Source: Anaerotignum sp.
GTDB lineage: Bacteria; Bacillota; Clostridia; Lachnospirales; Anaerotignaceae
Assembly (NCBI RefSeq): GCF_030625865.1
Contig: NZ_DAOUQB010000001.1
Span: 124,001 to 188,000, forward strand
Direction of reading: 5' to 3'
Length of the DNA: 64,000 bases
Of this stretch, positions 16,999 to 52,258 are shown one piece after another. Made by a program: the position numbers and the translations under genes. Within the stretch, counting starts at the first letter, position 1. Each line of letters starts with the position of its first letter. The notes under the pieces were generated by a model. It was not told where the DNA came from and made no database searches. It worked only from the letters and a program-made list of their open reading frames with translations.

Positions 16999-17027
16999 TT
17001 GACGTTAAAATTTTTCAGGCATATACT
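16999..17027 (+). promoter_or_regulatory. Sigma-A promoter of the mgtE leader
   Basis: TTGACG at 16999-17004, an exact 17-bp spacer and TATACT at 17022-17027. Transcription would start near 17034, about 220 bases before mgtE, giving a long leader. Confidence 0.75.
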
Positions 17028-17064
17028 AAATATATAAAAAAATTCGAAAGCAGAGGTGATTCAA

Positions 17065-17166
17065 ATGGACGGCAAAAGTGAAAGTATTCCTTTAGAGCCT
17101 GAGAGTTATCGAACGTATCAGTTGAATATAGCCGTGTATTTGGGTGTACCTCTTTTTCTAAGTTAG
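17065..17166 (+). CDS. Putative 33-residue mgtE leader peptide
   Basis: A short ORF with its own AGAGGTG ribosome site, correctly spaced, about 30 bases after the predicted transcription start. The first 13 codons are rich in acidic residues and proline (MDGKSESIPLEPE); the C-terminal half is hydrophobic. Codons 22-26 contain the 5' arm of an antiterminator helix in the mgtE leader. Acidic and proline-rich nascent starts destabilise ribosomes at low Mg2+ in enterobacterial leaders such as mgtL. The same logic here is an inference. It has no known homologue that I recognise. Confidence 0.55.
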   Translation: MDGKSESIPLEPESYRTYQLNIAVYLGVPLFLS

Positions 17167-17236
17167 ACCCTTCGGTTTCTACGCCTTTTTTCGGATAGTA
17201 CACGGCTAATTTGTAGAAAATAAGTCGTGTTTTTTT
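17129..17236 (+). promoter_or_regulatory. mgtE attenuator: exclusive antiterminator and terminator helices
   Basis: Terminator: ACACGGCT (17200-17207) pairs with AGTCGTGT (17223-17230), the helix continues inward after one mismatch, and T7 follows (17230-17236). Antiterminator: TAGCCGTGTATT (17129-17140) pairs with AGTACACGGCTA (17197-17208), 12 bp with one wobble, sequestering the terminator's 5' arm. The two cannot coexist. The antiterminator's 5' arm lies in leader codons 22-26, so a translating ribosome would block it. A second weaker hairpin (GGTGTA 17143-17148 with TACGCC 17180-17185, then a T-run to 17191) sits in the antiterminator loop. Confidence 0.7.
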
Positions 17237-17256
17237 GTTGAATGGGGTGAAGGAAT

Positions 17257-18609
17257 ATGGAGGAAATGCAAGAGCTTTTTGACTTTTTGGATCAACTAAT
17301 GGAGTCAGGTGAGTATGTTCAATTAAAAGAGGAACTTAACTCAGAACAACCTGCCAATGTTGCAGAATATTTTGAGGAATTGACTGCTGAAAAACAACTA
17401 TTTGTTTTTCGTTTACTTACAAAAGATATGGCGGCGGAAGTTTTTTCTTATATGGATAGTGATACCCAAGAACATATTGTGCATTCTATAACGGATCGAG
17501 AAGTACGCAATATTGTAGACGAAATGTTTTTAGATGATACAGTGGATTTTTTGGAAGAGGCACCGGCAAACTTAGTAAAGAAGGTATTGCGAAATACGGA
17601 TGCGGAAACAAGAAAGTTAATTAATCGGTTTTTAAATTATCCTGAAAATTCTGCGGGAAGTTTGATGACGATTGAATTTGTAAAATTGCGCAGCAATATT
17701 ACTGTTGCCAATGCTATGAAGCAGATTAAGCGAACGGGAACGGACAAGGAGACAATTTATACCTGTTATGTTATAGATAACAAAAGAAAACTGATTGGCG
17801 TTGTGCCCTTAAGAACATTGATTTGTGCATCGGACGATGAAACCATCGAAGAATTAATGCAAGAGGATGTCGTTTCTGTGTTGACCACTGACGATCAGGA
17901 AGAAGTAGCCAATAGCTTTAAAAAATACAATTGGATGGCCTTGCCTGTTACTGATACAGAGGGGCGTTTGGTTGGTATTATCACTGTGGATGATATCGTG
18001 GATGTAATTGATCGAGAAACCACAGAAGATATGGAGAAAATGGCGGCGTTATTGCCTTCTGATGAGGAGTACTTAAAAACGCCGGTTATGGCACTTGCGA
18101 AAAATAGAATTCCATGGCTATCAGTGTTAATGATCTCAGGAACCCTTAGCAGTTTTGTTATTGTCCAGTATAATAATCTTTTAGAAATTGCAGTGGTACT
18201 ATCAGGTTTTATTCCAATCATTACGGGCACAGGCGGTAATGCCGGTTCTCAGGCATCGACAATGATTATTCGTGGTATGGCTTTGGGAGAAATTGAAATA
18301 AGAGATGCGATTAAGGTTGTCTGGAAGGAAATTCGTGTGGGAGTCCTTTGCGGTTTTGCATTAGGCCTACTAAATATGTTGAAGATGACTTTAATTAATA
18401 GAGATACTGGGTTTCTGATTAATCTTTCTGTATCCCTTAGTATGGCAGCGGTTGTTGTTTTAGCAAAGACAATTGGTTGTATTCTTCCAATTTTAGCCAA
18501 AGCTTTAAAATTTGACCCGGCAATGATGGCGGGACCTCTGATTTCAACTGTTGTTGATGCAGTTGCATTAGTCATTTATTTCAGTATTGCAACAATATTG
18601 GTTTTATAA
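17257..18609 (+). CDS. mgtE: Magnesium transporter MgtE
   Basis: Mg2+ channel of 450 residues. The N domain (residues about 1-130, helical, with LNSEQPANVAEYFEEL) is followed by two CBS domains (about 135-255: GSLMTIEFVKLRSNITVANAM and EDVVSVLTTDDQEEVANSFKKY). These sense Mg2+ in the characterised enzyme. A plug helix and five membrane segments follow, with GFIPIITGTGGNAGSQASTMIIRG near 320 as the channel signature and GPLISTVVDAVALVIYF near the end. The ribosome site is GGGGTGAAGGA. It is the only gene after the attenuator described upstream, which probably controls it. Confidence 0.96.
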   Translation: MEEMQELFDFLDQLMESGEYVQLKEELNSEQPANVAEYFEELTAEKQLFVFRLLTKDMAAEVFSYMDSDTQEHIVHSITDREVRNIVDEMFLDDTVDFLEEAPANLVKKVLRNTDAETRKLINRFLNYPENSAGSLMTIEFVKLRSNITVANAMKQIKRTGTDKETIYTCYVIDNKRKLIGVVPLRTLICASDDETIEELMQEDVVSVLTTDDQEEVANSFKKYNWMALPVTDTEGRLVGIITVDDIVDVIDRETTEDMEKMAALLPSDEEYLKTPVMALAKNRIPWLSVLMISGTLSSFVIVQYNNLLEIAVVLSGFIPIITGTGGNAGSQASTMIIRGMALGEIEIRDAIKVVWKEIRVGVLCGFALGLLNMLKMTLINRDTGFLINLSVSLSMAAVVVLAKTIGCILPILAKALKFDPAMMAGPLISTVVDAVALVIYFSIATILVL

Positions 18610-18647: not shown

Positions 18648-18690
18648 GAGCGATAACCGTAGGTAAATGGTTGTCGCTCATTGTGTTTAA
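18648..18690 (+). terminator. Terminator after mgtE
   Basis: GAGCGATAACC pairs with GGTTGTCGCTC (one wobble), followed by ATTGTGTTT. The stem is strong and the T tract weak. Confidence 0.6.
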
Positions 18691-18705
18691 AGGGAAAGCA
18701 TAAAT

Positions 18706-18746
18706 AAAAAGAGGGATAATCACTATGATAGTGATTATCCCTCTAA
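18706..18746 (-). terminator. Terminator after the NSS transporter gene
   Basis: AGAGGGATAATCACT pairs perfectly with AGTGATTATCCCTCT. On the minus strand it is followed by TTTTTATTTATG. Confidence 0.9.
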
Positions 18747-18798: not shown

Positions 18799-20187
18799 TT
18801 AGGAAATAGACATACCAAGCAACAATCCTGCTACGATGATGAAAAAGATACCAACAGGAGCAGCAACTTTTACAAGGAATGCCCACAAAGGAGCAAGAGT
18901 GAACTTGTATTTTCCGTCAGAAGTTGCTTCTTTGATTGCATTGTCTGTACCCCAAATCCAACCAACAAAAATAGTTGTAAAGAATGCACCGAAAGGTAAC
19001 AGCAAACGGTCTGTCAAATATTCCATAAAATCGCCGAAGATAGGGAACTGAACACCATCCAGTGACCACCAGATACCTTTGATGGGCAAGTAAGCCTGAG
19101 ATAAGGTGTAGAAAATACCGATGACGAACAGAACAACGGAAACATAAACAACTGTTTTCTTACGTTCCATACCTTTTTCTTCAACCAGGAAGGCTACAGT
19201 ACCTTCTAAAATGGAAATGGAAGAGGTAATAGCCGCAAAGAACAACAAAGCGTAGAATAATAAACCGAAAATAGTACCGCCAGGAATTGAGTTAAATACA
19301 CCGGCCAAAGTTGCAAAAGCAAAACCACCACCCATACCGGGGTCAATGCCTGTTGCAAATACAGCGGGGATAATCATGAAACCAGCAAATAAAGCTACGC
19401 AAGTATCCAATACACAAACAACACCGGTATTGCTTATTAAGTTATCATCTTTGCTTAAATAAGAAGCATAAGTAATCATAACGCCCATACCTAAAGAAAG
19501 AGAGAAGAATGCCTGACCAAGAGCTACAAGGAATGAATTACTATTAATTGTAGAGGGGTCAAAATGTAGCATGTAAGAAACACCTTCGCCTGCGCCGGGC
19601 AATGTACAAGCACGAATCATCAAACCAATTAACAAGACAAACAGCAAAGGCATAAGGAATTTGCTGAGTTTCTCAATACCATCTGCAACACCACGGCTAA
19701 TAATGAATGATGTTAAAGCCAGGAAGATCAAGGGGAATATGATTGCGCCTTGAAGAGGGAATCCATTTGCACCCAACATATTCAAGAAATAAGCAGTAGG
19801 ATCTGCATATACTGTTGCAGAATCTGTGATGTAAGCGATGATGTACTTGATGGTCCAGCCACCAACTTGGCAGTAATAACAAAGAATAATGAAACCTGTT
19901 AAAACGCCGAGACCACCAACCCAAGCAAATTTCGCGTTCAATTCACGAAGAGCACCAATTGCGTTCTTTTGTGTTTTACGACCGAGTACGAACTCTGCAA
20001 GCATTACAGTTGAACCGATCAAAGCTACCATAAGTATGTAGATTACCAAGAAAGAACCACCGCCGTTATAGTATGCTTTGCCGGGGAACTTCCAGATGTT
20101 ACCGAGACCTACTGCAGATCCAGCCGCAGAAAGGATAAAGCCTAGTTTGGATCCAAATTGACCACGGTTTTCTATTGATGTTGACAT
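18799..20187 (-). CDS. Sodium-dependent transporter, NSS (SNF) family
   Basis: Na+-coupled symporter for amino acids or related compounds, 462 residues, with about 12 membrane segments. The family N-terminus is clear: FGSKLGFILSAAGSAVGLGN, then IWKFP, with the Na+/substrate unwound segment, and SLSLGMGVMITYASYL near 236. The start is set at 20187 (MSTSIENRGQ) because GGAGG lies 7 bases upstream and homologues begin there; the frame extends 17 codons further with no ribosome site. The substrate cannot be told from sequence. It has an unusually long 5' leader with possible alternative hairpins. Confidence 0.92.
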   Translation of the reverse strand: MSTSIENRGQFGSKLGFILSAAGSAVGLGNIWKFPGKAYYNGGGSFLVIYILMVALIGSTVMLAEFVLGRKTQKNAIGALRELNAKFAWVGGLGVLTGFIILCYYCQVGGWTIKYIIAYITDSATVYADPTAYFLNMLGANGFPLQGAIIFPLIFLALTSFIISRGVADGIEKLSKFLMPLLFVLLIGLMIRACTLPGAGEGVSYMLHFDPSTINSNSFLVALGQAFFSLSLGMGVMITYASYLSKDDNLISNTGVVCVLDTCVALFAGFMIIPAVFATGIDPGMGGGFAFATLAGVFNSIPGGTIFGLLFYALLFFAAITSSISILEGTVAFLVEEKGMERKKTVVYVSVVLFVIGIFYTLSQAYLPIKGIWWSLDGVQFPIFGDFMEYLTDRLLLPFGAFFTTIFVGWIWGTDNAIKEATSDGKYKFTLAPLWAFLVKVAAPVGIFFIIVAGLLLGMSIS

Positions 20188-20402
20188 ATAATTCCTCCTT
20201 ACAAAATGAATGATTTCGTTTTGGCAAAAAAGCCACATCCATCCAGCAACTATTCTGCCACAGAATAAGTTTCGTGTGGCGATAAAATGCTACATCTTAA
20301 GCCCCTCCCTCCATGTTAAACTGCATTTTTACTGCTTACATCACTGTTGTGATGTGAAACAAATCTCATACAATTTCCATAAACTCCAGATGATGATGGA
20401 TC
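20188..20402 (-). promoter_or_regulatory. Long structured 5' leader of the NSS transporter
   Basis: About 215 bases separate the predicted start of transcription from the ATG. In the transcript GCCACA (20275-20280) can pair with TGTGGC (20257-20262) or with a second TGTGGC (20232-20237) that is directly followed by TTTTTT. A third hairpin, TATTCT/AGAATA (20251-20267), competes with the first pairing. A separate inverted repeat ACATCAC-TGTT-GTGATGT lies at 20338-20355. This suggests attenuation, but no known riboswitch class was recognised. Confidence 0.35.
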
Positions 20403-52110: not shown

Positions 52111-52125
52111 AAACAAGTTGAAAAG

Positions 52126-52258
52126 AAACAACCGAATAGTACCGTAGACAGCAGGTGCAAAGTTTTGCGTAAATCCTGCCGAGGAGATTGCTGAAATTGA
52201 GCTATAAGCCTCTTTGTCTATGTGCAAAGAGGCTTTCTTGATTTATATAAGGATTTAA
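52126..52258 (+). ncRNA. L10 ribosomal-protein leader
   Basis: This matches the L10 leader class: AGACAGCAGGTGC, CCTGCCGAGGAGATTGCTG (kink-turn element bound by the L10-L12 complex), then a terminator hairpin AAGCCTCTTTG/CAAAGAGGCTT (52206-52233). Excess L10-(L12)4 binding is known to repress its operon. Confidence 0.85.

Follow-up and report, generated by a model that had tools for sequence, protein, structure and literature searches.

The mgtE leader in the window

The window analysed here is a stretch of 64,000 nucleotides from a genome of Anaerotignum (Lachnospirales; contig NZ_DAOUQB010000001.1). Its plus strand carries, at 17257-18609, the gene mgtE, which encodes a magnesium importer with MgtE_N, CBS and MgtE domains. 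The 2.75-Mb genome has no other MgtE match, and the protein is 94% identical to the MgtE of an Anaerotignum MAG and 91% identical to that of Anaerotignum sp. MB30-C6. A sigma-70-type promoter lies upstream on the same strand (16999-17027), with TTGACG at 16999-17004 and, after 17 nt, TATACT at 17022-17027. Promoter-like sites are not commoner between 16000 and 19500 than in shuffled sequences (5 against a mean of 10.8); of 27 named relatives, however, 23 have the TTGAC..TATACT pair ahead of mgtE, and a contig end accounts for one of the misses. The Shine-Dalgarno (SD) sequence AGAGGTG (17052-17058, plus strand, SD score 7) then precedes a leader ORF of 33 codons (17065-17166, plus strand), marked by its codon-position differences and by the conservation of its SD, whose peptide is MDGKSESIPLEPESYRTYQLNIAVYLGVPLFLS. 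The conserved part of this peptide is its N-terminal half, MDGKSESIPLEPESYR, and the late codons double as an arm of the leader RNA.

Four arms of this RNA, all on the plus strand, can be paired in three mutually exclusive ways. Arm 1 (17046-17073) comprises the leader SD, the start codon and codons 1-3, and arm 2 (17129-17158) covers leader codons 22 to 32. Arm 3 (17197-17208) is the 3' arm of the antiterminator and includes the 5' arm of an intrinsic terminator (17200-17236), in which 17200-17207 pairs with 17223-17230 to form helix 3:4 (-11.4 kcal/mol), followed by a T7 run at 17230-17236. The antiterminator, helix 2:3, joins 17129-17140 to 17197-17208 with standard pairs at 12 of 12 positions. 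The third possibility, helix 1:2, is an anti-antiterminator of 26 pairs between 17046-17073 and 17131-17158, and it competes directly with helix 2:3; the calculated duplex energies in this leader are -33.1 kcal/mol for 1:2 and -21.8 kcal/mol for 2:3. The leader RNA as a whole folds at -54.5 kcal/mol (z -3.15), and none of 200 dinucleotide shuffles folds as well. The terminator was not listed by a simple terminator scan, presumably because its loop exceeds the limit of 8 set in that scan. An earlier note, made from the sequence alone, had described the promoter, the leader ORF with its SD, the acidic and proline-containing N-terminus, the terminator and the antiterminator; all of these were found where it had placed them, and helix 1:2 had been overlooked.

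Between arms 2 and 3, a T6 run (17186-17191, plus strand) is a possible, weakly indicated NusG-type pause site of the TTNTTT kind, a motif given for such pausing in PMC12288461. This tract stands 8 nt before the 5' arm of the terminator, a spacing that is similar in many leaders from two genera. The presence of TTNTTT by itself is not significant: 26 of 41 spacers contain it, and dinucleotide shuffles give a mean of 21.0 (maximum 28). Elsewhere in the window, strong stem-loops at 18648-18744, between mgtE and a convergent transporter-like gene (18799-20238, minus strand), look like ordinary terminators, and a ribosomal protein L10 leader (RF00557, 74.5 bits) at 52124-52248 is an element of an expected kind.

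By sequence and folding, the region has the exclusive helices and the intrinsic terminator of a ribosome-mediated attenuator. It also has the early acidic residues with proline and the downstream Mg2+ transporter of leaders of the mgtL/mgtQ type, and the codon-position pattern and SD conservation suggest that the short ORF before the gene is translated. An M-box or another Rfam element in the leader was considered and rejected: the only Rfam match there at E<=10 is a sub-threshold snoRNA model, and the M-box covariance model (RF00380) scores neither the leader nor the rest of the window's genome, as the earlier note had suspected for this region.

Conservation of the peptide and of the helices

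The distribution of the leader was surveyed in the 58 genomes of the family, 54 of which have an MgtE match. In all, 58 upstream regions from 53 genomes were compared; five of these belong to second, distant paralogues, only the first copy of each tandem mgtE pair was taken, and G031 supplied only a fragment. In one of the tandem pairs (G011:C7:11449-12797), the first copy appears as two overlapping matches, as a frameshift or an assembly error would produce. With a simple filter requiring an SD and an MD or ME start, a leader was detected in 52 of the 58 regions, examples of the peptides being MDGKSESIPLEPE, MDGSSESIPLGPE, MDNGESYSAEPVPLC and MEAGSSCNAEGVPLC. The six regions without one are those of G054 and G055, which have an M-box instead, G013, which lies at a contig end, G023, whose SD is too weak for the filter and whose leader is visible at the same contig coordinate in L011, and G030b and G024b, which are distant paralogues. 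Even when no start was preselected, MD or ME opened 54 of the 60 small ATG ORFs with an SD in these upstream regions. A core [IVA]P[LP] occurs within the first 22 residues of 40 of the 52 peptides, with an Asp or Glu at most four residues before it in 39 of the 40; the other 12 lack the core and keep MD/ME, which was the selection rule in this set. Three leaders of a distant kind of mgtE (L141, L143 and L142, from G041b, G043b and G044) start with MDNCGS or MESCGS, have a later DRH and show no Pro-Leu core. In 45 of the 52 cases a terminator-like hairpin with an energy of -5 kcal/mol or lower stands before mgtE, and seven have none; in 42 it starts no earlier than the end of the leader, and in the three others it starts inside that end.

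The pattern of codon changes argues that the N-terminal peptide is selected as a protein, because the differences in codons 2-16 are nearly confined to third positions. In seven of the eight genomes of the window's genus, the differences at codon positions 1, 2 and 3 of these codons number 6, 6 and 82, with 65 synonymous and 24 nonsynonymous codon differences over 21 pairs; all genome pairs are counted, so that a single change may be counted several times. Codons 17-30 of the same genomes give 34/44/65. The divergent eighth genome, G002, changes the count for codons 2-16 to 49/56/161 when it is added. A second genus, g3, behaves similarly, with 24/16/109 in the early codons against 48/61/62 in the later ones in seven genomes, or 49/34/163 in the early codons with G021 included. 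The bias is weaker in g2 (19/25/53) and in g14 (11/8/21, or 20/18/37 with G053 over fewer codons). Judged by these counts, the first half of the leader ORF is, in this genus, under much stronger protein-level selection than the second half, and the idea of an incidental ORF was rejected on the codon-position pattern. The pattern SD-MDG(S/K/N) adjoins mgtE in 8 of 8 genomes of the genus; the remaining 4 of its 12 matches lie away from mgtE, two in G002 and one each in G003 and G004.

The helices were compared in 14 leaders from two genera, leaving aside G002, which is divergent, and G021 and G023 of g3, the same genomes as were omitted from the codon counts. Helix 1:2 is paired in 86.8% of cells, against 36-48% when the partners are slid by 1-3 columns; the corresponding values are 90.5% against 23-47% for helix 2:3 and 90.2% against 15-50% for helix 3:4. 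Cells changed on both sides number 16 in helix 2:3 and 15 in helix 3:4, counts reached by none of 500 shuffles that take no account of kinship. Under the same kinship-blind shuffling, the two-sided changes in helix 1:2 are not significant (reached in 185 of 500), its variation being mostly one-sided. Columns 103, 177 and 229 covary as U-A-U in seven sequences and C-G-C in the other seven, which keeps both 2:3 and 3:4. Taken one by one against 200 dinucleotide shuffles (p<=0.05), the family leaders have a significant helix 1:2 in 41 of 52 and a significant helix 2:3 in 26 of 52, significance being missing in 11 and 26 respectively. Chance pairing was rejected, given the failure of the shuffles to fold as well as the window's leader, the conservation of the helices and the lower occupancy of 2:3 obtained with shuffled late codons (see below). 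At the level of sequence, the comparison demonstrates the ORF, the selection on its N-terminal peptide, three conserved helices, the association with mgtE and the replacement by an M-box in two relatives. Relatives thus keep the ORF, the peptide and the exclusive pairing, the comparison that the earlier note had proposed as a check on its reading.

Ribosome position and the choice between helices

The competition was modelled by masking the RNA with a ribosome footprint of 30 nt and folding it as it would be before arm 4 is made. In the window's leader, the model forms helix 1:2 when no ribosome is present (25.6 expected pairs). When the P-site occupies one of codons 1-8, helix 2:3 forms instead (15.8-17.6 expected pairs); at codons 9-18 helix 1:2 forms again, and a ribosome placed exactly on Pro9-Leu10 no longer masks arm 1. 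Over codons 19-33, helix 1:2 falls to 2.7-13.4 pairs, and helix 2:3 never exceeds 2.3 pairs apart from a value of 12.5 at codon 31. A P-site placed on the stop codon lets 2:3 form once more (18.7 pairs), so that a long stay of the ribosome there would blur the OFF state. The full-length RNA of this leader favours the terminator at equilibrium at every ribosome position (0.93-0.97), and the switch must therefore be kinetic.

The same model was applied to 42 leaders of the family. With an early ribosome, helix 2:3 reaches a mean occupancy of 0.62; six runs in which the late codons were shuffled gave 0.24-0.28. Early occupancy exceeds that with a late ribosome by 0.2 in 27 of the 42 leaders and that without a ribosome in 19; it exceeds both in 19, against 3-12 in the shuffled runs. 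The antiterminator is favoured (>=0.6) with no ribosome at all in 11 of the 42 leaders, among them those of G001, G004 and G007 from the same genus, and in four of the 42 it is favoured with a late ribosome as well.

The likely explanation of these observations is that mgtE is under ribosome-dependent transcription attenuation built on four RNA arms, the gene being ON when a ribosome is held or aborts at early codons, presumably at low Mg2+. On a leader free of ribosomes, helix 1:2 and then helix 3:4 would form and mgtE would be OFF. A ribosome traversing the late codons would cover arm 2, letting 3:4 form, with the same outcome. A ribosome held in roughly the first 8 codons, or starting and aborting there repeatedly, would cover arm 1 and leave arm 2 free; helix 2:3 would then form before arm 4 is made, and mgtE would be transcribed. 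The conserved acidic, Pro-Leu N-terminus (Asp2, Glu6, Pro9-Leu10) may make early elongation fragile, as the acidic residues do in MgtL and MgtQ. We infer that the leader is translated and attenuates in cells, that ribosomes pause or abort at its early codons and that Mg2+ is sensed. Low Mg2+ would be the most likely signal in view of the regulated gene, of the M-box that two relatives have at this position and of the MgtL and MgtQ precedents. Through such a switch, the ribosome itself would probably signal a lack of magnesium.

The core of the earlier proposal, that an acidic leader with prolines couples the attenuation of mgtE to translation, is upheld by the conservation of the ORF, the peptide and the exclusive helices. 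Its account of the switch holds in that complete translation is predicted to favour termination, and has to be amended in that a leader left bare after ribosome drop-off would not suffice for the ON state. Indeed, helix 1:2 covers the leader SD and start codon, and an untranslated or vacated leader is therefore predicted to end in termination. The original scheme, in which only two exclusive helices operate and the lack of translation turns the gene ON, must nevertheless be weighed as an unlikely alternative. Helices 2:3 and 3:4 exist and are conserved, as it requires, and the 11 family leaders favouring 2:3 without a ribosome would fit it; helix 1:2 is, on the other side, conserved as well, is stronger than 2:3 in the window's leader, and wins there before arm 4 is made when no ribosome is present. 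The two schemes make opposite predictions for a mutation of the leader start codon, which under the 1:2 topology should switch mgtE OFF, unlike under simple drop-off. In Salmonella, a start-codon mutation of mgtQ lowers mgtB (PMC8092293). The prediction is not guaranteed, because removal of the corL start codon raised corA in E. coli, an effect that the authors ascribe to a stalled small subunit (PMC11552253). For the window's own leader, the correction brought by the third helix is firm within the folding model.

A second alternative, which we judge rather improbable, is an arrest peptide answering some other signal, such as EF-P or ABC-F status, a small molecule or the state of the membrane, with mgtE as only one of its outputs. 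Such a peptide would show the amino-acid-level conservation found at the N-terminus, and Bacillus subtilis does rely on EF-P and ABC-F factors to translate proline and charged motifs (PMC11381351). Against it stand the adjacency of the SD-MDG(S/K/N) pattern to mgtE in all eight genomes of the genus and the fact that an M-box takes the place of the leader in two relatives.

An attenuator responding to an amino acid or its charged tRNA is more doubtful still. Here a shortage of charged tRNA-Pro would stall ribosomes at proline codons; this kind of control is reported for Salmonella mgtP, whose proline codons respond to proline limitation (PMC3641672). The RNA topology is of the same kind, and codons 9 and 12 of the window's leader encode proline. 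Its proline codons are nevertheless few and include no single-codon run, and the regulated gene is a Mg2+ importer. What stays constant in the family is the acid at residue 2 together with acid-x-[IV]-P-[L/P] (39 of 40), and MD/ME is kept by the 12 of 52 leaders that lack [IVA]P[LP] and by 54 of 60 unselected ORFs. In mgtQ, moreover, the proline codon itself is dispensable (PMC8092293). The proline-codon attenuator was rejected as first choice on account of the few proline codons, the constant acidic motif and the importer downstream. Direct sensing of Mg2+ by the RNA, riboswitch-like and with an incidental ORF, is very improbable: the alternative structures are stable, helix 1:2 alone could be Mg2+-sensitive, and for mgtA the choice between RNA and mgtL translation as the Mg2+ sensor is called unsettled (PMC11552253), but the 6/6/82 codon-position pattern, the lack of an Rfam aptamer in the leader and arm sequences that change with their pairing largely kept all speak against it.

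Related leaders and M-boxes in Clostridia

Ribosome-dependent attenuation of mgtE, the reading preferred here, has partial counterparts among known systems. In trp-type attenuators, three competing helices exist and the ribosome decides between them. The window's leader resembles them in both respects; it differs in lacking a stretch of codons for a single amino acid and in that arm 1 covers the SD and start codon, not later control codons. Salmonella mgtQ, an upstream ORF before mgtB, has the same 1:2 / 2:3 / 3:4 topology with arm 1 overlapping the ORF, and its acidic residues stand at positions 2 and 5, against 2 and 6 in the window's leader, both ORFs preceding a Mg2+ transporter (PMC8092293). 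The differences are that mgtQ has 8 codons, lies between two genes and, as described there, acts on translation by freeing the mgtB ribosome-binding site (PMC8092293), whereas the window's ORF is a 33-codon 5' leader with a longer conserved N-terminus and would control an intrinsic terminator before mgtE. Enterobacterial mgtL, the leader of mgtA, likewise has acidic and proline residues at its extreme N-terminus and precedes a Mg2+ transporter (PMC11282234, PMC11552253). Its EPDP motif destabilises ribosomes, an effect countered by EttA (PMC11282234), and efficient mgtL translation lowers mgtA (PMC11552253). It differs from the window's leader by Rho-dependent termination, another RNA fold and another transporter, MgtA. 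Further along, the MgtL sequence reads PTPLP. Bacillus subtilis ribosomes stall on Asp-Pro motifs and acidic runs (PMC11381351), which makes an early-codon effect plausible in Gram-positive bacteria.

The peptides are too short to tell descent, and convergence with mgtL or mgtQ is as likely as common origin. Among the matches listed in a search of open-licence papers, no prior description of a leader peptide of mgtE in Clostridia was found.

The M-box before mgtE, for instance in Bacillus subtilis, likewise controls the gene by transcription attenuation (PMC12288461), unlike the window's leader, which has no aptamer and whose conserved element is a peptide-coding ORF. The statement of the earlier note that Mg2+ transporters of Firmicutes are usually under the M-box proved too broad for Clostridia, where M-boxes were found in 38 of 146 genomes of the class, with stricter filters that lose some weak ones. 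Within the family, 9 of 58 genomes have M-boxes. Those of G054 and G055 stand directly before mgtE, in the very position of the leader, which is not detected there; those of G011 and G012 precede genes that read, in translation, as P-type ATPase-like, and those of G035 and one site of G036 precede CorA-like ones. At another locus of G036 (L144), an M-box is followed by a leader MDNGQSSSYHS.., a terminator-like hairpin and then mgtE, so that two possible sensors are placed in series.

MgtE was found in 97 of the 146 class genomes, and 101 upstream regions were fetched, a set without the second copies of tandem pairs and without G000 and G022 of the family. With L256, which lacks a start, and L180 left out, ORFs were counted over 99 regions outside the family. 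MD or ME starts 38 of 62 small SD-bearing ORFs, distributed over 36 regions, against 32 of 385 control ORFs, a conservative comparison because the controls include the mgtE-upstream parts of L029-L080; the other 63 regions have no MD/ME leader by this filter. Motifs formulated once the leaders had been seen, M[DE]..P[LVIF](x)P or M[DE]..[IV]P[LP], occur in 12 of the 62 ORFs and in 1 of the 385 controls. Peptides of this set include MDSGPLPNSYRKK, MDYPDPLPCSKN, MDFDPLPSNF, MDNSVPLPDSG and MDSDPLPGKYN, and leaders such as MDSGPLP and MDSDPLP resemble, in sequence, enterobacterial MgtL and MgtQ. A search of all 146 genomes for GAGG followed by M-D-x(1-4)-P-[LF]-P gave 63 matches, 22 of them in frame. 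Seven of the 22, in G198, G068, G164, G072, G073, G100 and G058, lie by eye directly before mgtE; of the other 15, eight (L264, L266, L268, L271, L277, L283, L285 and L289) comprise three starts of long ORFs and five small ORFs without an evident context.

The two kinds of element also occur together. Of 21 M-boxes standing directly before mgtE in the class set, as judged by comparing coordinates by eye and with G132 unscored, eight are followed by an MD/ME leader: L180, L196, L181, L227, L209, L226, L185 and L183, from G072, G073, G100, G123, G163 (two), G164 and G197. This recalls Mycobacterium tuberculosis, where an M-box is likewise accompanied by a conserved small ORF in a Mg2+-related leader (PMC12810186). 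The mycobacterial ORF is under a translational M-box with Rho (PMC12810186), whereas the window's leader is free of any M-box.

A further set consists of 52 named loci with a more distant mgtE, mostly Lachnospiraceae by title, 22 of which passed a leader filter. Sixteen of these 22 leaders begin with M-K, M-N or M-S and have an acidic-x-P-[L/V]-P core, as in SDNPLPGRS, and 13 of the 16 end beyond the start of the mgtE match. The other six begin with MDAG, and two of them (L030 and L042) have an M-box as well. Several of the 30 loci that failed the filter contain cores of the DSSVPGRS kind. At L037, L048, L066, L075, L077 and others, a leader of the form M-K-..-SDNPLPGRS.. lies some 80-140 nt ahead of the mgtE match. 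In loci of the M-K type, GTGGTTTT just before the leader start can be paired by eye with AAAACCAC just before the mgtE SD. From its sequence, this Lachnospiraceae leader seems to apply the same principle at the level of translation.

On balance, we lean slightly towards the view that acidic, Pro-Leu leaders before mgtE constitute a widespread ribosome-based Mg2+ sensing of Clostridia, convergent with MgtL and MgtQ and either an alternative to the M-box or stacked on it. The fragility of the ribosome at early codons would have been recruited repeatedly and coupled to different RNA outputs: an intrinsic terminator in the Anaerotignum family, an ORF overlapping the mgtE start in Lachnospiraceae, and a leader behind an M-box elsewhere. 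The published examples found of Mg2+ sensed through early destabilisation of the ribosome are enterobacterial leaders (PMC8092293, PMC11282234, PMC11552253). If the wider reading is true, this mode of sensing would be a more general principle extending beyond them, and the mgtE leaders of Clostridia would offer a large natural set for working out which residues matter.
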